The translations under genes and the position numbers were made by a program. From an uncultured Bacteroidota bacterium (GTDB lineage Bacteria > Bacteroidota > Bacteroidia > Flavobacteriales_D > Crocinitomicaceae): a DNA stretch of 64,000 nt. The stretch's first letter is position 1, and the number at the start of each line of letters is the position of its first letter. This document shows, piece by piece, positions 32,148-43,953 of this stretch. Below the pieces are notes generated by a model that was not told the DNA's origin, searched no databases, and saw only the letters and a list, made by a program, of their open reading frames with translations. The DNA lies in the NCBI GenBank assembly GCA_937899625.1, contig CALCCB010000075.1, forward strand, positions 1-64,000, written 5' to 3'.

Positions 32148-34649
32148 ATGAAAACAAGAATGGTTAAGTCGTTGTGGGCAATAGTTTTAACGCTATCGCC
32201 GATCATCGCAAATGCACAACACGAGCTTCGTGGAACTGTTGTGAACGACAAAGGAGAATCTTTAACCGGAGTTAAAGTTCTCCTGCACAACACTTATTTT
32301 GGCACATACACTGATCACGAAGGAAAATACTTGATCAATAATGTACCTTCCAACACCTATGTGATCGAGCTTTCGTTGATCGGTTATCAAACCCTTGAAC
32401 AGGAAATTACAGTTTTAGAGGGTCAGTCAAAATTTGACTTCAGGCTACAACCTTCTGTTTTGAGCATTGAGGAGGTTCAAGTTACAGCAGTTAGGGCAGG
32501 ATCATTAACTCCGACAACCTATACTAACCTTAACAAAGCATCGATAACCACCATGAACTATGGACAGGACCTACCTTATCTTCTTGAAGGAACGCCTTCA
32601 ACAGTGGTTACATCGGATGCCGGAGCAGGAGTTGGTTACACGGGTGTAAGGATCAGAGGCGTTGATCCGACAAGAACGAACGTTACTGTAAATGGAATTC
32701 CATTGAACGACGCTGAATCGCACGGAGTATGGTGGGTAAATATGCCAGATTTTGCTTCATCAACAGATCAGATGCAAATTCAACGTGGAGTGGGAACGTC
32801 TTCCAATGGTGCTGCCGCCTTTGGAGCAAGTATCAACATTAAGACCGATAACATATCCAGGGATCCATACGCAGCAATTGACAATAGTGCCGGTTCATTC
32901 AACACCTTGAAAAACACAGTAAAAGCCGGAACAGGCCTGATCAATGAGCGGTTTTCTGTAGATGCACGTCTTTCCAGAATTAGTTCTGACGGATTTATTG
33001 ATCGCGCAAATTCCAATCTGAAATCGTTTTATCTGTCGGGGGCATATATTATGAAAAACTCCATGCTCAAAGTAGATATCTTTAGTGGTAAGGAGAAAAC
33101 ATATCAGGCATGGTGGGGAATTCCTCAATCAAAATACAAGGGCGATGAACAAGGGCTGCTTACGCACTTTTACAACAACTATTATCCCGGCGGGATCTAC
33201 GAAACTGCAAGCGATTCTTCCAATCTCTTCAATTCAGGATCGAACACCTATAATTATTACTGGTATGATAATGAGACAGACAATTATCAGCAGGACCACT
33301 ATCAGTTGCATTATTCAAAAACCTTCAGCAACAAATTAGCGTTCAACATTTCAGGGCATTATACCAGAGGAAGGGGTTACTATGAACAATACAAACGCAA
33401 TCAGGATTTTTCGACCTATGGATTCGACCCTGTGGTCCTTGGGACTGATACGATCCAGAACACAGACCTTATAAGAAGACGATGGTTAGACAATCATTTT
33501 TATGGAGCAGTTTATGCGATTGCATACCGAAACAACAAAAACATGATCATCACTTTGGGTGGAGGGGCGAATCAATACCTCGGTAATCACTTTGGAGAAG
33601 TGATCTGGGCAAGAACCGCTTCTCAATCCGAGATCGGACAACGTTATTATGAAAACGATGCGAACAAATACGAGATCAATAATTACCTTAAGTTCAATTA
33701 CACCTACAAGAAACTTGCGGTGTATGCAGACCTTCAGGTGAGAAACATTGGATACTCCTACCTTGGACTAGATCAATCATTTGGAATTTTGATCACATTG
33801 GAACAGAGTCTAAATTTCACATTTTTCAATCCAAAGGCAGGCTTAATGTATACCCTTTCAAACCGATCACAGTTTTACGGTTCATACAGTGTCGCACATC
33901 GTGAGCCGGTGAGGGATGATTTTATCCAAAGCACTCCGTCGAGCAGGCCAACTCCCGAACAACTTGGAAACACTGAGCTGGGTTTTAAATATCGGGCTAG
34001 AAAGACGTTTGCCAATGTTACTCTGTATCACATGAACTATAAGGATCAACTGATCCTGACGGGAGAGATCAACGATGTTGGAGCCTACAACCGCACTAAT
34101 GTTGAGCAAAGTTACCGGGCAGGAATTGAACTGGAAGGAGGATACATGATCAGTAAGAAATTGAGTGTCAGTGCAAATCTTACTTTTTCTCAAAATAAGA
34201 TCAAAGAGTTTACTGAGTTCATTGATAACTATGACAACTACGACAGTAACGGCAATATGATCCAGGATCAGGTTGTTCATTCAAATACAGATATTGCCTT
34301 CTCTCCAAATCTGATCTCTTCTGTGGGACTACTTTACGAACCTTTAAAAGGGCTTGAAATCACATGGTTGGCAAAATATGTGGGTTCGCAATATCTGGAT
34401 AACACCTCAAGCAAAGACCGAACGCTGGATCCCTATTTCATCAATAATGCAGGAATAAGTTATTCATTTAAAAATTGGGGGTTCAAGGACATTAAAATCG
34501 GTTTGATGGCAAATAATCTTTTCAATTACCGATACGCAAACAATGGTTACACCTGGGGCTACATCTTGGGTGGCACTCGAGTGATCGAAAATTTTGTTTA
34601 TCCACAGGCAGGGAGGAGCTTTCTAATAAAGCTGTCTTTACAATTGTAA
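32148..34649 (+). CDS. TonB-dependent outer-membrane receptor, predicted thiamine-related
   Basis: CarboxypepD_reg-like N-domain, plug VGYTGVRIRGVDPTRTNVTVNGIPLNDAESHGVWWVNMPDFASS, C-terminal AGRSFLIKLSLQL; downstream of TPP riboswitch; ATG at 32148. Confidence 0.95.
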   Translation: MKTRMVKSLWAIVLTLSPIIANAQHELRGTVVNDKGESLTGVKVLLHNTYFGTYTDHEGKYLINNVPSNTYVIELSLIGYQTLEQEITVLEGQSKFDFRLQPSVLSIEEVQVTAVRAGSLTPTTYTNLNKASITTMNYGQDLPYLLEGTPSTVVTSDAGAGVGYTGVRIRGVDPTRTNVTVNGIPLNDAESHGVWWVNMPDFASSTDQMQIQRGVGTSSNGAAAFGASINIKTDNISRDPYAAIDNSAGSFNTLKNTVKAGTGLINERFSVDARLSRISSDGFIDRANSNLKSFYLSGAYIMKNSMLKVDIFSGKEKTYQAWWGIPQSKYKGDEQGLLTHFYNNYYPGGIYETASDSSNLFNSGSNTYNYYWYDNETDNYQQDHYQLHYSKTFSNKLAFNISGHYTRGRGYYEQYKRNQDFSTYGFDPVVLGTDTIQNTDLIRRRWLDNHFYGAVYAIAYRNNKNMIITLGGGANQYLGNHFGEVIWARTASQSEIGQRYYENDANKYEINNYLKFNYTYKKLAVYADLQVRNIGYSYLGLDQSFGILITLEQSLNFTFFNPKAGLMYTLSNRSQFYGSYSVAHREPVRDDFIQSTPSSRPTPEQLGNTELGFKYRARKTFANVTLYHMNYKDQLILTGEINDVGAYNRTNVEQSYRAGIELEGGYMISKKLSVSANLTFSQNKIKEFTEFIDNYDNYDSNGNMIQDQVVHSNTDIAFSPNLISSVGLLYEPLKGLEITWLAKYVGSQYLDNTSSKDRTLDPYFINNAGISYSFKNWGFKDIKIGLMANNLFNYRYANNGYTWGYILGGTRVIENFVYPQAGRSFLIKLSLQL

Positions 34650-34873: not shown

Positions 34874-35284
34874 ATGAATCTAAAAGCAATATACTGTGTT
34901 GATGATGATGATGTAATCAATAAAGTCTTACTGTTCCAAATTTCCAAGTTCATTGAACATGAAGAAATTGTTGTTGAAACATGTAATCACCCCAAGGAAT
35001 GTGTTGAAATGATGAAGGAAAACTATAGGTTAGGAATAGAACCCCTTGTTTGTGTGGTAGATTTTCAAATGCCAGAAATGAGGGGAGATGAATTTGCAAG
35101 AATTGTCAAATCTCTTTTTCCTAAAATAAAAATTATTATGCTTTCAGGAAATTCAAATGCTCTATTAGTTTCCGAACTCGAAGAGGAAGGTTGTCTGGAC
35201 TTCTATATAACAAAACCTTGGGAAAAAGATGACCTAAAAGACAAGCTCAACTTAAGTCTTCCGCTAAATCTTAAATTTATGTGA
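34874..35284 (+). CDS. Stand-alone response regulator receiver protein
   Basis: REC: YCVDDDDVINKVLL, VCVVDFQMPEMRGDEFARIV, IIMLSGNSN, ITKPWEKDDL. Confidence 0.92.
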   Translation: MNLKAIYCVDDDDVINKVLLFQISKFIEHEEIVVETCNHPKECVEMMKENYRLGIEPLVCVVDFQMPEMRGDEFARIVKSLFPKIKIIMLSGNSNALLVSELEEEGCLDFYITKPWEKDDLKDKLNLSLPLNLKFM

Positions 35285-36328
35285 ATGAAATTAATTACTA
35301 CTTTATCATTTATTACACTTTCCATTTTCTGTTTCGCCCAACCAACTATTCAAGTAAATGGTTATGGCCACTTGGAATATGAATTCTATGATTTACCGGA
35401 TGAGGGCAAATATGAAAGTGAGTTTGCTATAGGGGAGCATGATTTGTTCCTCACCAGCAAAATCAACAAGAAACTCTCGTTCCTTTCAGAAATTGTTGTA
35501 AAACCTGATAAAAAATCCAGCTCAGGATTTTCCGCATCAATTGAACGTGCAAGGATCAAATACAATTATTTCAAGAACCACAGCTTATTGTTTGGAAAAA
35601 TGCATACCCCCTTGAATTACTGGAATGATGTTTATCATCATGGGAGATTATTTTTCCCAACTATAGATAGACCAATGAATTTCGAATATTTCTTTCCAAT
35701 TCACACTACCGGTATTCGTGCCCAGGGTCAGAATATTGGAAGCTTAAATTTTGGTTATGATCTCATGTTGGCGAATAGTCTTGAGGGAATCTCTGCACAC
35801 CATAGTCGTCTTTTAATGTCTTACACTGCCTCCGTTCACATTAAACCTACTGATGGAATGCGCATCATGCTTGGGTATTATAACGATTATTTACCTTCAA
35901 ATGACAATGGATCACATGTAGAAATGAATATGGAATATGATGGAGAATTAACCATGAATCAGTTCTTATTCTCTTTTGCCAGAATGGAACGCAAACTTGA
36001 AATTCTTAATGAATTCGCATACACCATGACAAATACGGACAGTCTTGGTGCTTCCTCAAATTTTTCAAACTATCTGTATGTTGGTTATCGAATAAAAGAT
36101 ATCCATACGCCATTTGTCATGATTGATTATTTACAGATAGACCCCAAAGAATTGCACACAATTAGAAGAGAAGGAATAAAATATTCTTTAGGCTACAGAT
36201 GGGATATTGACCCTAAATGCAATGTTAAATTGCAACTGGAAAACTATATGCCTATTGATTTGAATGAAAATGTGCCAGGAATAACAAAAAAGTTTGAGGT
36301 AAAAATTCAGTTAGCTTATGCCTTATAG
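35285..36328 (+). CDS. Porin-like outer-membrane beta-barrel protein
   Basis: Signal peptide; alternating barrel strands; FGKMHTPLNYWNDVYHHGRLFFPTIDRPMNFEYFFPIHTTGI. Confidence 0.7.
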   Translation: MKLITTLSFITLSIFCFAQPTIQVNGYGHLEYEFYDLPDEGKYESEFAIGEHDLFLTSKINKKLSFLSEIVVKPDKKSSSGFSASIERARIKYNYFKNHSLLFGKMHTPLNYWNDVYHHGRLFFPTIDRPMNFEYFFPIHTTGIRAQGQNIGSLNFGYDLMLANSLEGISAHHSRLLMSYTASVHIKPTDGMRIMLGYYNDYLPSNDNGSHVEMNMEYDGELTMNQFLFSFARMERKLEILNEFAYTMTNTDSLGASSNFSNYLYVGYRIKDIHTPFVMIDYLQIDPKELHTIRREGIKYSLGYRWDIDPKCNVKLQLENYMPIDLNENVPGITKKFEVKIQLAYAL

Positions 36329-36743
36329 ACTGCTTATCATATTTGTGTTCTGTTGTTTTACCAACACTTTGTTCTCACAAAGTGATTGGAATGCAATCAC
36401 TGTGGTTGGTAATAAAACTGAACTCAAATCAATTTCCAAATCCAAACTTAAAAGAATTTTTAAAGGTTACGAATCACGTTGGAATAATGACAATGAAATT
36501 ATTGTTGTTTTGCACTCATCAAAATCACCGACCTGTGAAATCATGGCTCAAACTATCTTTGGAAGTTCAATGAAAACAGTTAAAAGATATTGGCTAAATC
36601 TCGTCTTTCAAGGAAGAGCAAATCCCCCTGTCTTTCTGGATGATAATCTCGAAATATTAAATTATGTCAAAAGTCACCCTGGTGCGATAGGAATTTTGGT
36701 TAATTATTCAGGGGCGACAGAATACCAAATTAACTTGGAATAG
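36318..36743 (+). CDS. PstS-like periplasmic phosphate-binding-domain protein
   Basis: Signal peptide; SISKSKLKRIFKGYESRWNND, GSSMKTVKRYWLNLVFQGRANPP, VKSHPGAIGIL. Confidence 0.8.
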   Translation: MPYRLLIIFVFCCFTNTLFSQSDWNAITVVGNKTELKSISKSKLKRIFKGYESRWNNDNEIIVVLHSSKSPTCEIMAQTIFGSSMKTVKRYWLNLVFQGRANPPVFLDDNLEILNYVKSHPGAIGILVNYSGATEYQINLE

Positions 36744-36747
36744 AAAT

Positions 36748-39042
36748 ATGCGGATTTTCTCATCTATTGCATTTCGAATTTGGATAATTTTTACTGCTGT
36801 TGGTTTGATAATATCGTTGCCAATGGCTTATTATTATAACAACTATCAGTTTGAACTACTTCAAGAATATACAAAAGGTCAGTTCGATGTTAACTCAAAA
36901 ATTACATCCAAAGCTGTAATTAATGCGCTTGATTTTGACGATTATGCCATACTTAATGGAATCTTAAATGAAATCAGCGAAAGTAAAAATTACTCCTTTG
37001 TAGCCATTTTAGAAAAAAATAATTTAGGCAAGGAAGAGGTGCTTACATGCATGCCAGCCGAAATGGAGAATCAAATATTAAAATTTGACTCGACTAAATA
37101 TTTATTTAGCAGGGCTCCCTTTAAAACAGAGGTGGTCGAGGGAGTAGTTATAATGGCTGCATCAAAGGAAGACGCCCTTAAATCTGTAAGCTCCTTAAAT
37201 AAACCTATAATTTACTTGGCAATTGCAGCAATTGTGGCGTCCGTGATCTTATTTGGATTTTCGATCTTTTTTCTAAGCCGGCCAATCTTTAAGTCTATCG
37301 AAATTGCCAATTCTTTAGGTATGAGAGATTACAGCATCCCAATAACTTATAGATCTGGAAAGGATGAAATATCCAGACTCAACAATGCTCTTTTAAACCT
37401 GAAAAATAATCTTATTGAATTAGATTCTGAAAATAGAAATTTATTGGAGGGATTGGAAACAAGAGTTGCAAGCATGACAGCTGATATCTCTTACAAAAAC
37501 GAACTTACAAACTTGCTGTTACAGGTCTCAACATTGTTTATGGACCATAAATCCGAAAAGTCACGAAATGAAACATACAATGAAATCAATGAAGAAATCG
37601 CTAAAAAACTTCAGTTGTTCAAATTCAGAAATTTTTCATTAGATCATTCTCAATACATTGATTTTTATGATGAGTCAGAATGCATGGATTGTTTTAAGTC
37701 TTTTCTGAAGTTAAATCCAGGATTCATTGAAAATCTAGAGATTAGAAAACTAATTCAGATACCCGAACAACACAAAGCATTTATTTGGTCACACTGTATT
37801 GGACACGAGTTTTATAATGCAGAAATCTTCCTTTATGCTTTTTCTAACATCTCAAATGGAGTTGAAGGGGTTATTTTCTTAGCAGAAAGTTTACAAAAAA
37901 AGATTCAAGCCAAAGAGTTTACGGATATGTTAGATGTTTATTATTCGTTGCTGACCAACTTTAATAAAAGTTTAATCTTTGAAAATGAATTGATTTCATT
38001 GAATAAGACACTCGAATCCAAGGTGTTGGAAAAAACAAGAGTGAACCTTGAAATTTCGAATACCTTAATAGCTCAAGATAAACTTGTTACATTAGGTGAA
38101 GTAGCTGCAGGAATTGCCCATGATCTAAATACTCCAATTGGCTCTATTAAAGCTTCCGCACAGGAGATCAATCAATTAATCGATGAGTTTTTAACTATTA
38201 TAACAGAAGTTACGAGTGAAGAATATCAATTTATTTTGTCATTTGCTTCAACACATGATTATTTGAGTAAGCACCGAACGGCTATTCAAAAACTTAAAAA
38301 TTCATCAGAACTAGTTAGTCAATTGAGGGGTGTTCTGATTAATCAACCTGATGAGCAAATTTCTAAAATTGCCTCACTGTTGAATAATGCAGGTTTTGAA
38401 CTCGTAGATTTTGATGAGTATGCTAATATTCTGCACTTTGAAAATACTGAAAAGATAATAAAGGGGATTAATATTCTTTGGTTGTTGCGTTCTTTCCTTT
38501 CGGGAATTGTGATTTCTTCAGAACGATCAGCTGGTGTAATTTCAAATCTACAAAATTTCGTTAAAGAAGATCTCACCCAAGAAAAATCAACTATCAACTT
38601 AGCCAAGAGTATTAAATCAATTGAACCTTTAATACGTCACAGAATTAAAGATAATATTGCATTGTTGATAGAAATAGATGATGCCATTAACATTCATGGG
38701 ATAGAGATGAAATTATTCCAGGTTTGGACTAATATTTCGAAAAATGCGATTGAAGCCTTTGAAGAATCACCAGAAGACCAAACAGATAAATACATTAAAA
38801 TCTTTACTAAAATTAAAGAGTCTAGGGTGCAAGTACACTTCGAAAATAATGGTCCCACCATCTCTGAGGAAAACCAGAAAAAAATCTTCAAAAAGTTTTA
38901 TTCAACTAAACATCGAAAAAATGGTACTGGTCTTGGATTGAGTATTGTTTCAAATATTATAGCTGAGCACTATGGTGAAATGAGGCTTACATCAGATCAA
39001 GTAACAACCTTTACTATAGATCTCCCACTTGTGTCAGATTAA
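36748..39042 (+). CDS. Membrane sensor histidine kinase
   Basis: Two N-terminal TMs, HAMP-like, EVAAGIAHDLNTPIGSI H-box, WTNISKNAIEAFEE N-box, TGLGLSIVSNIIAEHYG. Confidence 0.92.
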   Translation: MRIFSSIAFRIWIIFTAVGLIISLPMAYYYNNYQFELLQEYTKGQFDVNSKITSKAVINALDFDDYAILNGILNEISESKNYSFVAILEKNNLGKEEVLTCMPAEMENQILKFDSTKYLFSRAPFKTEVVEGVVIMAASKEDALKSVSSLNKPIIYLAIAAIVASVILFGFSIFFLSRPIFKSIEIANSLGMRDYSIPITYRSGKDEISRLNNALLNLKNNLIELDSENRNLLEGLETRVASMTADISYKNELTNLLLQVSTLFMDHKSEKSRNETYNEINEEIAKKLQLFKFRNFSLDHSQYIDFYDESECMDCFKSFLKLNPGFIENLEIRKLIQIPEQHKAFIWSHCIGHEFYNAEIFLYAFSNISNGVEGVIFLAESLQKKIQAKEFTDMLDVYYSLLTNFNKSLIFENELISLNKTLESKVLEKTRVNLEISNTLIAQDKLVTLGEVAAGIAHDLNTPIGSIKASAQEINQLIDEFLTIITEVTSEEYQFILSFASTHDYLSKHRTAIQKLKNSSELVSQLRGVLINQPDEQISKIASLLNNAGFELVDFDEYANILHFENTEKIIKGINILWLLRSFLSGIVISSERSAGVISNLQNFVKEDLTQEKSTINLAKSIKSIEPLIRHRIKDNIALLIEIDDAINIHGIEMKLFQVWTNISKNAIEAFEESPEDQTDKYIKIFTKIKESRVQVHFENNGPTISEENQKKIFKKFYSTKHRKNGTGLGLSIVSNIIAEHYGEMRLTSDQVTTFTIDLPLVSD

Positions 39043-39864
39043 TGTGCTTTTTATCCAGCCGATCATCTTGAAATAAGCACTATCTGCATCTAGATCGTTG
39101 TGTAATTCGTGATAACCGTCCGGAAAAAAAAATCCTTTCACATGATCTCCTGAGTGCTCGACCAGCTGTCTGGAAGCTTCAGCAGAAGTTAATCTATCCG
39201 CCTCACCATGCATAACTAACACAGGGATTTTGATCTCATGAGCTTTTTGGATGGCATAAGCTCCGGCCTTGTGAACATTAACAAAGAATGAAGCGGTTAT
39301 TTTATCATGAACAAGGGGATCTTTCTTGTATTTTTCTACTACTTCTGTTATCCTCGAAATCGCAGCCACTTCCAAACCAGTTGATTGAGAAAAACCAGGA
39401 TAAATTCCCGAGGCCATTCTACCTAAGGATACTTTCCATTTCGGAGGATCGAAAGCCAATCGTAAATAGGGCGAAGAAGCTATAATACCTTTTACCCTGG
39501 AATCCTGCTTCCTGATGGTATAATTCAATGCAAGATTTGCTCCCATGCTTTGGCTGAATAAGAAGGCCGGTAAGCCAGGAAACAGTTGAACAGATTCATT
39601 TATTACCATTTCAAGATCCTTCATTAAGTGCTCATACGAAGGGGAATGCCCCCTCTTCCCTGATGATCTACCGTGACCCCGATGATCAAAAGCCAATACT
39701 GAATATCCAGCACCATTCAATTTTTCTGTCAGCTCTGCATATCTACCCGCGTGTTCCCCCATCCCATGAATAATGATCACAATTGCTTGAGCATCTGCAA
39801 TTTGATCTATATACATCATCAATTCAAGTTCATCTTCTGTTTTCAGCTTTTTTTCCATTATCAC
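39034..39864 (-). CDS. Alpha/beta hydrolase (monoacylglycerol lipase-like)
   Basis: VIIIHGMGEHAGRYAEL, FDHRGHGRSSGKRGH, FLFSQSMGANLALNY, VLVMHGEADRLT. Confidence 0.93.
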   Translation of the reverse strand: MIMEKKLKTEDELELMMYIDQIADAQAIVIIIHGMGEHAGRYAELTEKLNGAGYSVLAFDHRGHGRSSGKRGHSPSYEHLMKDLEMVINESVQLFPGLPAFLFSQSMGANLALNYTIRKQDSRVKGIIASSPYLRLAFDPPKWKVSLGRMASGIYPGFSQSTGLEVAAISRITEVVEKYKKDPLVHDKITASFFVNVHKAGAYAIQKAHEIKIPVLVMHGEADRLTSAEASRQLVEHSGDHVKGFFFPDGYHELHNDLDADSAYFKMIGWIKSTLI

Positions 39865-39963: not shown

Positions 39964-42900
39964 ATGAATTTCAATAAATGGCTCTTTGTCAGCACAATAT
40001 TCATCTCCTTAGCAGTTTCGAGCTCTTATTCCTATGCTTGTAATTGTCCTATTTTCGCTACAGCATCCGGATCTGATACACCAGGTACAACTGCTACGAT
40101 CACTGATTTTTCGTGTGCACAAGGCAATATTACATCCGCCTTTTTATCCTTCAACTTACAGGGCACAAATTGCCCGAGCTGGACATTTGCGAATGTGATC
40201 GTTAACGGTAACGTTATTGCAACAGGTCTTTGTTCTGCCGATAACATGGACCTTTCCCCGTTTTTTCCATTGACTTCTGTTTCAGTTACGGCTTTAGACA
40301 ACCCTGCAGATGGCGTTTCGGATAATGTCACTGTAAATATGTATTTAGGGTTGAATGGGGCTCAAGCAACATTCGGTTTCACTGCCCCAAGCTATGTCTG
40401 TTACGGTCAGCCAGTTCAGTTTAACAACCAAACACAATGTGCTTCTACTTATTCATGGGATTTTGGCGATGGTCAACAATCTAACCTTGAACAACCCTCG
40501 CACATCTATTCAGAAGCTGGATACTACTACGTTAATATGATGGCATTTGATGCCTCTGGCAGTTATATGGGTAATTACAGTCAAACTGTATTTGTGGCAG
40601 GGCATAAACCTTTTTTCAATTTGAGTGAAGATACCGTTTGTGTAGGAGATCAAATTCAAATCTGGGATGCGGGTTTTTTTCAAAACAATGCCAATGTCAC
40701 TTACACCATAAACTATGGTGATGGAAATCAGGAGGTTGTAAACAATTCATGGGCTAGCTTTAACCATTCTTATGCAACCGCTGGGGACTTTACTACAACC
40801 TTAACAATTGAATCCAATTGTGGTGTACAGATCATTGATACAATTATCCATGTTGGGAATAATTTGCCGGTAAGTGGTTTCATTGATGTATATGCAGGAA
40901 ATGGTGGGGCTATATGCCCTGGAACTCAAGTAAATCTCTACACTAATTGGGACCTTGATTATCTTTTTAATTATGGCGATGGCCTTACGGGAACAGCAGG
41001 AAATCATATATATCCATCGTTTGGCACCTATATTCCAAGCGTAACATTACAAAATGGGTGCGGAAATACTGCTACATACATTGGGAACCCGATCATCGTG
41101 ACAAATGTGCCATATTATTCAGGTGACGCATACATTGGGGCCAACATAAATAATATAAATAATCAGGCTTGTCCTGGTACAAGTGTCGGATTTTCGACCG
41201 CGAATGCATCTTCGTATAGCTGGAATTTTGGTGATGGGGGCACCAGTAACGTGCGATACCCATCACATATTTTTACAAATCCCGGAACTTATAATGTGGG
41301 GGTTACACTCTTTGACGGTTGTGGTAATGATACAACCCTAACAATGACGGTGCAGATCGTAACTAATCTTCCAATAAACCCAAATGTTGCGATCACATCG
41401 GATGTTCCAAGTGAGATTTGCATTGGAGATGGCTTTCAGTATAATGTAAGCTCGGCATATCAATATGAAAATTCAGGTACATTTCTGTGGAATTTTGGTG
41501 ATGGCACATTTTCTGACTCGAGAGATGGTTTCCATAGTTATTCCTCAGCGGGCACCTATTTAGTTTCATGTACAATTACAAATTCATGTGGTAATGACAC
41601 TACTTTATTCGCTCAAATAGCAGCAGGAACTAATATTCCTCCACAGTTTATCTATGCTGGAACCCCACAAGAAATTTATTGCCCAGGTGACAATGTCCCA
41701 CTAGTTGCCGCTCCATATAACGCTGCTTCGACTTTGGTTTGGGACATGGGTAATGGAACAACAATTGCGTCTCAAGATTCTCTTGTTTTGAATATTGAGG
41801 GAACAATGGTAGTTTACCATTTGGCAAACTATTCATATTCTTCTCCCGGCATCTACAATGTTCAAGCAACAATAACTAACGGCTGTGGACTCTCAGCAAC
41901 GGAGCAATTTGTTCTTACAGTTGGTTCAGGGGCAGAAATAGAGAACGCAGGATTTTTCATTGATTTTGATGAATATGTTTGTCTTGGAGAACCCGTTGTC
42001 TTTCGTGGATATGGAGGAAATGAGTTCTTTTGGAATTTTGGCGATAATTCAGGAATTGAATTGTCTAGTGCCGCACTAGAGCCTGTTGAACATAGTTACA
42101 ATACCCCAGGGTCCTACATCGTTACTATGATCGCTTTCAATAATTGTGGGGATACAGCAATGTTTACTCAACAGATTATAATTCCAGACTCTGATATGGA
42201 AATTATAACCAACTCACTTGACGCAAGCTGTTTACAGGCCGATGGTCAAGCCATTGCAAATGTAATCGGTCCAAATCCTCCTTACAGCTATAGCTGGACC
42301 AGCGGGGATAACACGAACATTGCAAGTGACCTTGAAGCAGGAATCTATGTTGTAACTGTTACAGATAATAAAGGCTGTTCTGACTTTGCCATCGCTACAA
42401 TATCTGACGCGCAAGCCCCTACACTGGCCGTTACCAATGTCATTGATGTAAGTTGTTTTGGCGAAGACAATGGCGCCATCGATATAACTCCTATTGGGAA
42501 TACTTCGGGCATCCAATACCTTTGGTCGAATGGTGCAACAACGGAGGATGTAAATGGCCTGGTAGCTGGTCCATACGAAGTTATCGCAACAAATGGTCAA
42601 GGCTGCATTGCAGTAGCCTCAATCCTGGTAGAACAACCAGGAGAAGTGAGCATTGCGTTTACTTCCAATGACGCTTCATGTAATTTAAGTAACGGAAGTG
42701 CAACTGCAGTCGTGAATGGAACTACTGGACCTTATACCTACATCTGGTCGAACGGACAAAGCGGTCCTAATGCTACTGGTCTCGCAGCAGGAGTTTATAC
42801 TGTTTCGGTCATTGACAACCAAAGCTGCTTGACAACAGCTAATGTTGCGATCAGTGAAACAAATGCCCCGGGAATCATTATGGATTCCATCGTGAACATC

Positions 42901-43953
42901 GGTTGTGGAGAAGGGGGAAGCGGAATCTATATTTCGCCAATCGGAGGAACGTTACCTTATACGTATGTTTGGTCGACTGGTGCAACAACTCAAGATCTAA
43001 TAGGTCTATCACCTGACGAATACTGGGTTTCGGTAACCGGAGCAAACGGTTGCGAGGGATATGAACTTTTTGAAATTGAATACGAGAACCCACTTCCAAA
43101 TCCAATTTGTGTTGTTACTGTCACTCCATCTCAGCACAATAAGGTGGCATGGGAAAAAATTGCCACAACCGGAATCGACCACTACAACATTTATAAAGAA
43201 AGTAGCTCTGCAGGATTATACTATTTGATGGGAACAGTGCCTTATGATTCCTTAAGTATCTATATTGACACCATTTCAAATCCTGCTGTTCAAGCATACA
43301 GATATAAGATCTCCGCAGTTGATAGTTGTGGTACTGAATCATACATCAGTTCTCAACACAAGACCATCCACCTGACACAAAACATTGGTGTTTCACAGGA
43401 AGTCAATCTGATCTGGGATAATTACACTGGTTTCTCCTACACTACCTATAATATACTTCGTTACGATGATGCTGCAGGATGGACGATGCTGACTTCTCTT
43501 CCAAGTAACGTGAATTCATATAGTGACTTGAATGCACCATTAGGAACAGCAACATCGTTGTACTATGTCATAGAAGTTCCTTTGGAAGCGCCTTGTGTAT
43601 CAACCACAATGCACGTAGAAAACAACAATACGACTCGTTCTAACCGAACCGAGGCTATTGCTGGAGATATTACCGATGGAATTTCAGAATTGAAATGGGT
43701 GAACAGTCTATCCGTTTATCCTAACCCATCAAAAGGATTGTTCCAGATCAATTTATTTGCAGGAGATGTTAATCAAGCAGCTTTTCAGGTAGTTGATGCT
43801 CAAGGAAGAATTGTTCGAGAACATCAAGAAGGCTACATGTATCATGGGCAGGAACTTGAGATGGAGCTCACTGATCTGACAACCGGAGTATATCTCTTGA
43901 AAGTTGAATTTGATGGAAATCTAATAACCAAACGAATTGTCATTCAAAAGTGA
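39964..43953 (+). CDS. Large PKD- and SprB-repeat surface protein with T9SS sorting domain
   Basis: Repeated YSWDFGDGQQSN/WNFGDG PKD motifs; SprB repeats (GIYVVTVTDNKGC); LSVYPNPSKGLFQINLF C-terminal domain. Confidence 0.93.
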   Translation: MNFNKWLFVSTIFISLAVSSSYSYACNCPIFATASGSDTPGTTATITDFSCAQGNITSAFLSFNLQGTNCPSWTFANVIVNGNVIATGLCSADNMDLSPFFPLTSVSVTALDNPADGVSDNVTVNMYLGLNGAQATFGFTAPSYVCYGQPVQFNNQTQCASTYSWDFGDGQQSNLEQPSHIYSEAGYYYVNMMAFDASGSYMGNYSQTVFVAGHKPFFNLSEDTVCVGDQIQIWDAGFFQNNANVTYTINYGDGNQEVVNNSWASFNHSYATAGDFTTTLTIESNCGVQIIDTIIHVGNNLPVSGFIDVYAGNGGAICPGTQVNLYTNWDLDYLFNYGDGLTGTAGNHIYPSFGTYIPSVTLQNGCGNTATYIGNPIIVTNVPYYSGDAYIGANINNINNQACPGTSVGFSTANASSYSWNFGDGGTSNVRYPSHIFTNPGTYNVGVTLFDGCGNDTTLTMTVQIVTNLPINPNVAITSDVPSEICIGDGFQYNVSSAYQYENSGTFLWNFGDGTFSDSRDGFHSYSSAGTYLVSCTITNSCGNDTTLFAQIAAGTNIPPQFIYAGTPQEIYCPGDNVPLVAAPYNAASTLVWDMGNGTTIASQDSLVLNIEGTMVVYHLANYSYSSPGIYNVQATITNGCGLSATEQFVLTVGSGAEIENAGFFIDFDEYVCLGEPVVFRGYGGNEFFWNFGDNSGIELSSAALEPVEHSYNTPGSYIVTMIAFNNCGDTAMFTQQIIIPDSDMEIITNSLDASCLQADGQAIANVIGPNPPYSYSWTSGDNTNIASDLEAGIYVVTVTDNKGCSDFAIATISDAQAPTLAVTNVIDVSCFGEDNGAIDITPIGNTSGIQYLWSNGATTEDVNGLVAGPYEVIATNGQGCIAVASILVEQPGEVSIAFTSNDASCNLSNGSATAVVNGTTGPYTYIWSNGQSGPNATGLAAGVYTVSVIDNQSCLTTANVAISETNAPGIIMDSIVNIGCGEGGSGIYISPIGGTLPYTYVWSTGATTQDLIGLSPDEYWVSVTGANGCEGYELFEIEYENPLPNPICVVTVTPSQHNKVAWEKIATTGIDHYNIYKESSSAGLYYLMGTVPYDSLSIYIDTISNPAVQAYRYKISAVDSCGTESYISSQHKTIHLTQNIGVSQEVNLIWDNYTGFSYTTYNILRYDDAAGWTMLTSLPSNVNSYSDLNAPLGTATSLYYVIEVPLEAPCVSTTMHVENNNTTRSNRTEAIAGDITDGISELKWVNSLSVYPNPSKGLFQINLFAGDVNQAAFQVVDAQGRIVREHQEGYMYHGQELEMELTDLTTGVYLLKVEFDGNLITKRIVIQK

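Follow-up and report, generated by a model that had tools for sequence, protein, structure and literature searches.

Within a stretch of 64,000 nucleotides from an uncultured bacterium of the Crocinitomicaceae (contig CALCCB010000075.1, hereafter the window), a four-gene locus was found to contain a conserved gene pair, which codes for an outer-membrane beta-barrel and for a small periplasmic protein resembling one lobe of the phosphate-binding protein PstS (hereafter half-PstS). Together with an inner-membrane receptor, these two proteins probably constitute one modular transmembrane signalling system, in which barrel and half-PstS serve as a near-obligate input pair. A literature search covering open papers revealed no description of the pair, and the arrangement is apparently an undescribed, widespread bacterial sensing module. 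In the window the locus consists of the following genes:

34874-35284, plus strand: receiver gene, single-domain response regulator of 136 amino acids
35285-36328, plus strand: barrel gene, outer-membrane beta-barrel of 347 amino acids, core component
36318-36743, plus strand: half-PstS gene, periplasmic one-lobe PstS-type protein of 141 amino acids including the signal peptide, core component
36748-39042, plus strand: kinase gene, inner-membrane sensor histidine kinase of 764 amino acids

An earlier reading of the window, made from its letters only (the sequence-only reading), had described these open reading frames (ORFs) as nearly contiguous, and the ORF listing reproduces its coordinates and junctions to the base: the receiver stop is followed by the barrel ATG without spacer, barrel and half-PstS overlap by 11 bp (36318-36328) and a 4-bp gap precedes the kinase. 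A kinase with phospho-acceptor and ATPase domains and a receiver thus share one operon, as in a two-component system.

Reciprocal linkage of barrel and half-PstS

The barrel alone was used for a first selection of loci, whereby a barrel alignment was scanned against 84,980 named genomes and 80 loci were kept, at which the presence of half-PstS and receptor was scored by six-frame search; this also recovered the half-PstS of two loci (L066 and L075) where it lies under longer antisense ORFs. Half-PstS was identified directly 3' of the barrel in 77 of the 77 loci with enough downstream sequence, and the next gene carries the N-terminal membrane/periplasmic region of the window kinase in 72 of 75, while half-PstS matches total only 79 in the 1.2 Mb of these loci. 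Few of these loci are near-copies: of 63 complete ones, 61 survive a 90% barrel identity filter. For the reciprocal selection, half-PstS alone was sought in Bacteroidota genomes, in genomes whose loci carry the label of another phylum and in complete plasmids, the latter records being the Proteobacterial sampling, and barrels were then searched with a profile iterated from the barrel-selected set. A homologous barrel adjoins half-PstS on the same strand at 53 of these 58 sites, with 55 barrel matches overall. The arrangement is far beyond chance, and the linkage in both directions argues strongly that the two genes work as a unit. This linkage, which spans very divergent genomes, also refutes the idea of an ordinary two-component system beside which a porin of no relation to it and a degenerate pstS happen to lie; each gene singly does belong to a common class, but reading frames that remain intact at 30-40% identity and the correlated distances reported below add to the linkage, leaving this explanation with a negligible probability.

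The pair occurs in Gamma- and Betaproteobacteria as well as in Bacteroidota, its range including Pseudoalteromonas, Alteromonas, Saccharobesus, Photobacterium, Vibrio, Halomonas, Pseudomonas, Caballeronia, Massilia, Ideonella and Comamonadaceae. The conserved neighbourhood that the sequence-only reading had called for as a check does exist. Half-PstS is present in at least 29 of 396 Bacteroidota genomes, up to ten candidates having been scored per genome, and a family search gave strong homologues in about 12 of 150 genomes; the closest of these belongs to the same genus (G140, half-PstS identity 89%), and a Crocinitomicaceae record of a metagenome-assembled genome (JALRFI010000092) shows a barrel identity of 96%. 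All four genes stand in identical order at seven loci (L018-L024), where the receiver gene lies 5' of the barrel, and five others (L025-L029) keep the adjacency of barrel and half-PstS; elsewhere the receiver is located downstream, fused or absent. Because the position of the response regulator varies, the protein being often absent, and because the output of the kinase is replaced elsewhere, the constant core consists of barrel and half-PstS rather than of four genes, with the response regulator as an accessory. Hence, of the four-gene sensory system proposed earlier, the conserved signalling arrangement stood, whereas the fixed set of four did not.

Two loci, L060 and L061, are near-identical and are labelled Gemmatimonadetes and Verrucomicrobia in bins of seemingly one project, so at least one of them is mis-binned and phylum counts derived from draft-bin labels need care. 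At another locus (L161) two tandem copies of the pair precede a single downstream protein; at that place its relative L157 codes for a methyl-accepting chemotaxis protein (MCP).

Correlated evolution of barrel, half-PstS and periplasmic domain

Across 61 loci, pairwise distances correlate at 0.838 for barrel and half-PstS, at 0.842 for barrel and periplasmic domain of the receptor and at 0.848 for half-PstS and periplasmic domain, whereas the correlations of these three with the ATPase domain of the same kinase are only 0.42-0.48. Label permutations never gave more than 0.16, and partial correlations with the ATPase domain controlled are 0.79-0.81. ATPase distances were taken from the domain model, and taking the final 160 residues in place of this domain led to the same result. 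The difference between high and low values argues that barrel, half-PstS and periplasmic domain evolve as a block while outputs are exchanged.

Half-PstS as a single lobe

The window half-PstS matches PBP_like_2 (PF12849) with an E-value of 2e-4, which is under the Pfam cut-off, covering positions 92-183 of 267. Its AlphaFold model has a predicted local distance difference test (pLDDT) score of 90.5, and the best Foldseek matches of this model in the PDB are all PstS-type phosphate-binding proteins (E 1.6e-5), whereby the alignment extends over about 125 residues of proteins of 240-320 residues, i.e. over one lobe of two. The window sequences alone gave only noise against the PDB, and the relationships emerged via profiles and folds. 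The columns that correspond to R-E-D-G-S-G-T in phosphate-bound 4gd5 are mostly S/K, S/T, K/N, T/S, P/E, variable and G/A in 74 members of the family. As modelled, the window protein is therefore a single lobe devoid of the canonical phosphate-ligand motif; the PstS-type motifs that had been read from the sequence correspond to a PstS-like fold, but one lobe of it only, with the R-D-SGT motif gone. The most conserved stretch of the family is [KR]YWLxLVFQGRxxxP, a candidate contact or ligand site, in which F97, G99 and P104 are invariant and L93, V96 and Q98 are kept in at least 90% of the 74 sequences. In the window this signature is located as follows:

36582-36629, plus strand: half-PstS signature, residues 89-104, KRYWLNLVFQGRANPP

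These properties bear on the possibility that the locus senses phosphate or another oxyanion via its PstS-like protein. In Pseudomonas aeruginosa, PstS binds and stimulates the chemoreceptor CtpL during phosphate chemotaxis (PMC4926252), hence PstS-type proteins can dock on receptors, and this precedent, the PstS fold and a few barrels that weakly match the phosphate-selective porin family speak for such a sensor. Yet a single lobe that has lost the phosphate residues gives no ground for assuming that phosphate or an oxyanion is sensed; with the ligand motif replaced in the 74 members, phosphate binding at the canonical site is unlikely, and the sensor itself is regarded as quite improbable.

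Full-length relatives of about 300 amino acids, PstS-like lipoproteins of the same family, were observed at three loci (L030:5631-6539, L031:5123-6031 and L032:3737-4651). In the latter two the following gene codes for a protein of about 560 amino acids, with no obvious permease pair, and the lipoproteins possibly represent another PstS-derived non-transport system.

The barrel

The window barrel possesses an N-terminal signal peptide and a last strand ending in IQLAYAL, the features of an outer-membrane porin-type barrel. While the window protein itself matches no Pfam family over threshold, its homologues, 330-450 amino acids in size, match Porin_4 (best E 1e-17), Porin_O_P and OMP_b-brl as well as OmpA chains (E 8e-4), and based on these matches together with the signal peptide and the C-terminal strand, the window protein is predicted to be a barrel. 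The signature of the barrel family is located as follows:

35594-35674, plus strand: barrel signature, residues 104-130, GKMHTPLNYWNDVYHHGRLFFPTIDRP

Within it, G104, K105, H107, W113, N114, H118, H119, G120, P125, T126, R129 and P130 are invariant columns in 13 relatives.

Phosphate uptake in the genome

A further explanation sees in the barrel a porin specific for a solute and in half-PstS a periplasmic carrier delivering to a transporter encoded elsewhere, with the receptor merely regulating or reporting uptake. It draws on the Porin_O_P and Porin_4 matches of the barrel homologues, on half-PstS having the fold of a solute-binding protein and on pairs that lack an adjoining receptor. However, a lone lobe could form the customary cleft between two lobes only as a dimer, the residues that bind phosphate are gone and the genes around the pair do not fit. 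No ABC permease gene adjoins the four-gene locus, whose flanks are a TonB-dependent receptor on the 5' side of the receiver gene (end at 34649) and a convergent alpha/beta hydrolase gene 3' of the kinase (39034-39864, minus strand), in accordance with the earlier statement that no PstC, PstA or PstB permease lies nearby; among the flanking genes at other loci no permease recurs beside the pair either, the co-directional ones being mainly receivers and kinases. In the draft genome of the window, which is 94.6% complete, PstC (TIGR02138) gave no match and no full-length PBP_like_2 protein or PstS was detected, while a PiT transporter is present; likewise, PstC was found in none of seven system-bearing relatives of the same family. 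A PstS serving a distant PstCAB was rejected on this basis: with relatives alike, it is very unlikely that half-PstS serves PstCAB there, although about 5% of the genome is missing, and a separate pstCAB operon using the binding protein, which would have spoken against the sequence-only reading, did not come to light. Uptake as the function of the pair is accordingly considered unlikely.

Receptor, receiver and exchanged outputs

The receptor of the window is a kinase composed of these parts:

36748-37281, plus strand: receptor input region (first transmembrane segment, TM1; periplasmic PAS/CHASE8/LapD-like domain; second transmembrane segment, TM2), residues 1-178, from alignment
37291-37413, plus strand: HAMP linker, residues 182-222, weak match, E 0.014
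38092-38169, plus strand: HisKA phospho-acceptor stretch, residues 449-474, weak match, E 0.003, containing AGIAHDLNTP
38704-39030, plus strand: HATPase_c catalytic domain, residues 653-761, E 6e-19

The periplasmic domain was modelled as a small PAS-like fold between long helices (AlphaFold pLDDT 93.3), with Foldseek matches to a WalK model (E 1e-8) and to the periplasmic domain of a LapD orthologue (4u64, E 0.0098). Among 58 receptor relatives HAMP was identified in 54, CHASE8 in three and LapD_MoxY_N in one, the latter two with weak E-values. The co-encoded receiver matches Response_reg (E 7e-16) over all 136 amino acids, with VDDD, VVDFQMP, MLSG and KPW visible, which bears out the earlier statement that it has no output domain.

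In 45 third proteins HATPase_c was found 41 times and an adenylate/guanylate cyclase domain three times (L081, L085 and L107); across the wider set, MCP transducers, SpoIIE phosphatases and kinases all occur in this position. In Bacteroidota the pair usually adjoins such a receptor, whose output part changes from species to species, and the window-type input region is common to kinase, cyclase, MCP and SpoIIE receptors. In Betaproteobacteria, the pair is followed by an MCP (Ideonella, Massilia) or by a GGDEF-EAL protein (Caballeronia), and on P. aeruginosa plasmids an MCP lies 5' of the pair. Two such plasmid loci (L200 and L201) show a cluster of MCP, porin and half-PstS, in one case beside a resistance-nodulation-division (RND) efflux operon. 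The three cyclases, two of them from Maribacter records, are bacterial cyclases with a candidate periplasmic input. In the nearest relative (L018:8642-10396 and L034:11464-13218) the kinase frame ends at 584 amino acids as compared to 764, reflecting a frameshift, a pseudogene or an assembly error.

Proposed mechanism

In the suggested mechanism, half-PstS would act as an adaptor that binds to the receptor at its PAS/CHASE8-like periplasmic domain, and the state of half-PstS (free, held by the barrel or occupied by a solute let in through the barrel) would set the receptor conformation. The signal would then pass via TM2 and HAMP to the fused output, which in the window would be a histidine kinase that phosphorylates the co-encoded stand-alone receiver, and elsewhere a nucleotide cyclase, a chemotaxis transducer or a SpoIIE phosphatase. 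As the receiver possesses no DNA-binding domain, it must act by protein contact or relay. The direct contacts, the direction of signalling and the role of the barrel as outer sensor or gate are what we infer from these data.

Several points weigh against this proposal. Shared inheritance of the gene block contributes to the distance correlations, so that contact is supported but not proven by them; the contacts of half-PstS are putative, the collected family being too shallow for residue-level co-variation; and the barrel assignment is a fold prediction by sequence homology. The CHASE8/LapD likeness of the periplasmic domain is weak by sequence. At some loci, mostly on Proteobacterial plasmids, the pair stands without an adjacent receptor and may consequently have a job of its own, and the GGDEF-EAL protein of Caballeronia carries a dCache-like periplasmic domain that is not related to the one described here, so the pair can couple to more than one receptor type.

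A narrower form of the proposal would dispense with a small ligand, half-PstS shuttling between barrel and receptor and thereby reporting the status of the outer membrane or of barrel assembly. The loss of the canonical ligand motif, the PAS/CHASE8/LapD-like receptor domain and the similar layout of YfiBNR, in which the one-lobe-like YfiR binds YfiB as well as the PAS domain of YfiN, are in line with it, whereas the barrel is a porin-like protein rather than a peptidoglycan-binding lipoprotein and chemotaxis outputs fit a solute better than envelope stress; this form is thus rather doubtful. Tentatively, and with less than even odds, the barrel itself might be the sensor, holding or releasing a one-lobe adaptor that would carry the barrel state to interchangeable receptors, which would amount to an unrecognised signalling class. 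For the modular signalling system as a whole, the envelope-spanning sensor that had been proposed from the sequence in place of an uptake system appears to be the best reading: its signalling arrangement is conserved outside PstSCAB and without PstC, while the sensing as such is what we infer.

Relation to known systems and significance

Closest in layout is YfiBNR, and by analogy the present system may work alike. YfiR folds like one half of a binding protein and passes between an outer-membrane protein and the PAS domain of YfiN (PMC4655355, PMC3375315). Both systems combine an outer-membrane protein, a small periplasmic protein with a one-lobe ABC-binding-protein fold and an inner-membrane receptor with HAMP, exchangeable output and a periplasmic domain that in the present system is PAS-like by predicted fold. 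They differ in that the periplasmic protein is PstS-like (PF12849) here but YfiR/DUF4154 there, and in that the outer-membrane partner is a tightly linked beta-barrel rather than the Pal-like lipoprotein YfiB. Membership in YfiBNR was rejected: DUF4154 (PF13689) gave no match in the 74 half-PstS members, in which only PBP_like_2 matched, or in the window genome, and the partner is a barrel of 330-450 amino acids, not a Pal/OmpA-like lipoprotein. PstS of PstSCAB shares the fold of one lobe, but half-PstS is half its size, lacks the ligand motif and a transporter and has the additional YWLxLVFQGRxxxP stretch; membership in PstSCAB was rejected, as neither PstC nor a two-lobe PstS nor the R/D/S-G-T phosphate-ligand motif was found. 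The docking of a PstS-type protein on a receptor periplasmic domain, established for CtpL, is what is proposed here, yet the former involves a full two-lobe PstS shared with PstSCAB, a single receptor type and a described mechanism without an outer-membrane barrel.

The periplasmic domain described here resembles that of the LapD orthologue, which binds the periplasmic partner protein LapG, whereas no LapG-type protease was seen at the present loci, the partner is half-PstS and the outputs differ from those of LapD/MoxY receptors. In NspS-MbaA, LuxP-LuxQ and similar systems, a periplasmic binding protein relays the ligand state to a membrane receptor; these binding proteins are full-length and belong to other families, and we know of no coupled barrel in systems of this type. 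NspS-MbaA is a documented binding-protein-dependent receptor (PMC5646818).

In public annotations the components go by separate names ("porin", "phosphate ABC transporter substrate-binding protein", "hypothetical protein") or are filed under various kinases or chemoreceptors, which conceals the module. If the proposal is true, half a binding protein has been recruited twice as a periplasmic relay, once as YfiR from one family and once as half-PstS from PstS, the barrel is the first link of a signalling pathway and input candidates emerge for many orphan kinases, cyclases and chemoreceptors. Should the barrel in addition be the sensor, outer-membrane sensing would feed all the main outputs of bacteria, namely phosphorelay, cyclic nucleotides, chemotaxis, phosphatase and possibly cyclic di-GMP. 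Small "PstS" genes should meanwhile be read with caution as evidence for phosphate uptake.

Further observations

No match to the Bacteroidota-type promoter pattern was found 5' of the operon, and its matches in the window are no more frequent than chance would give. On an Alteromonas plasmid (L195:6540-9315), the type IV CRISPR genes csf1, csf2, csf3 and csf5 lie near a half-PstS/barrel pair. In the window, positions 39964-43953 code for a protein of 1329 amino acids that has PKD-like repeats and, at its C-terminus, a sorting-type tail (VYPNPSKG), as is typical of type IX secreted proteins.

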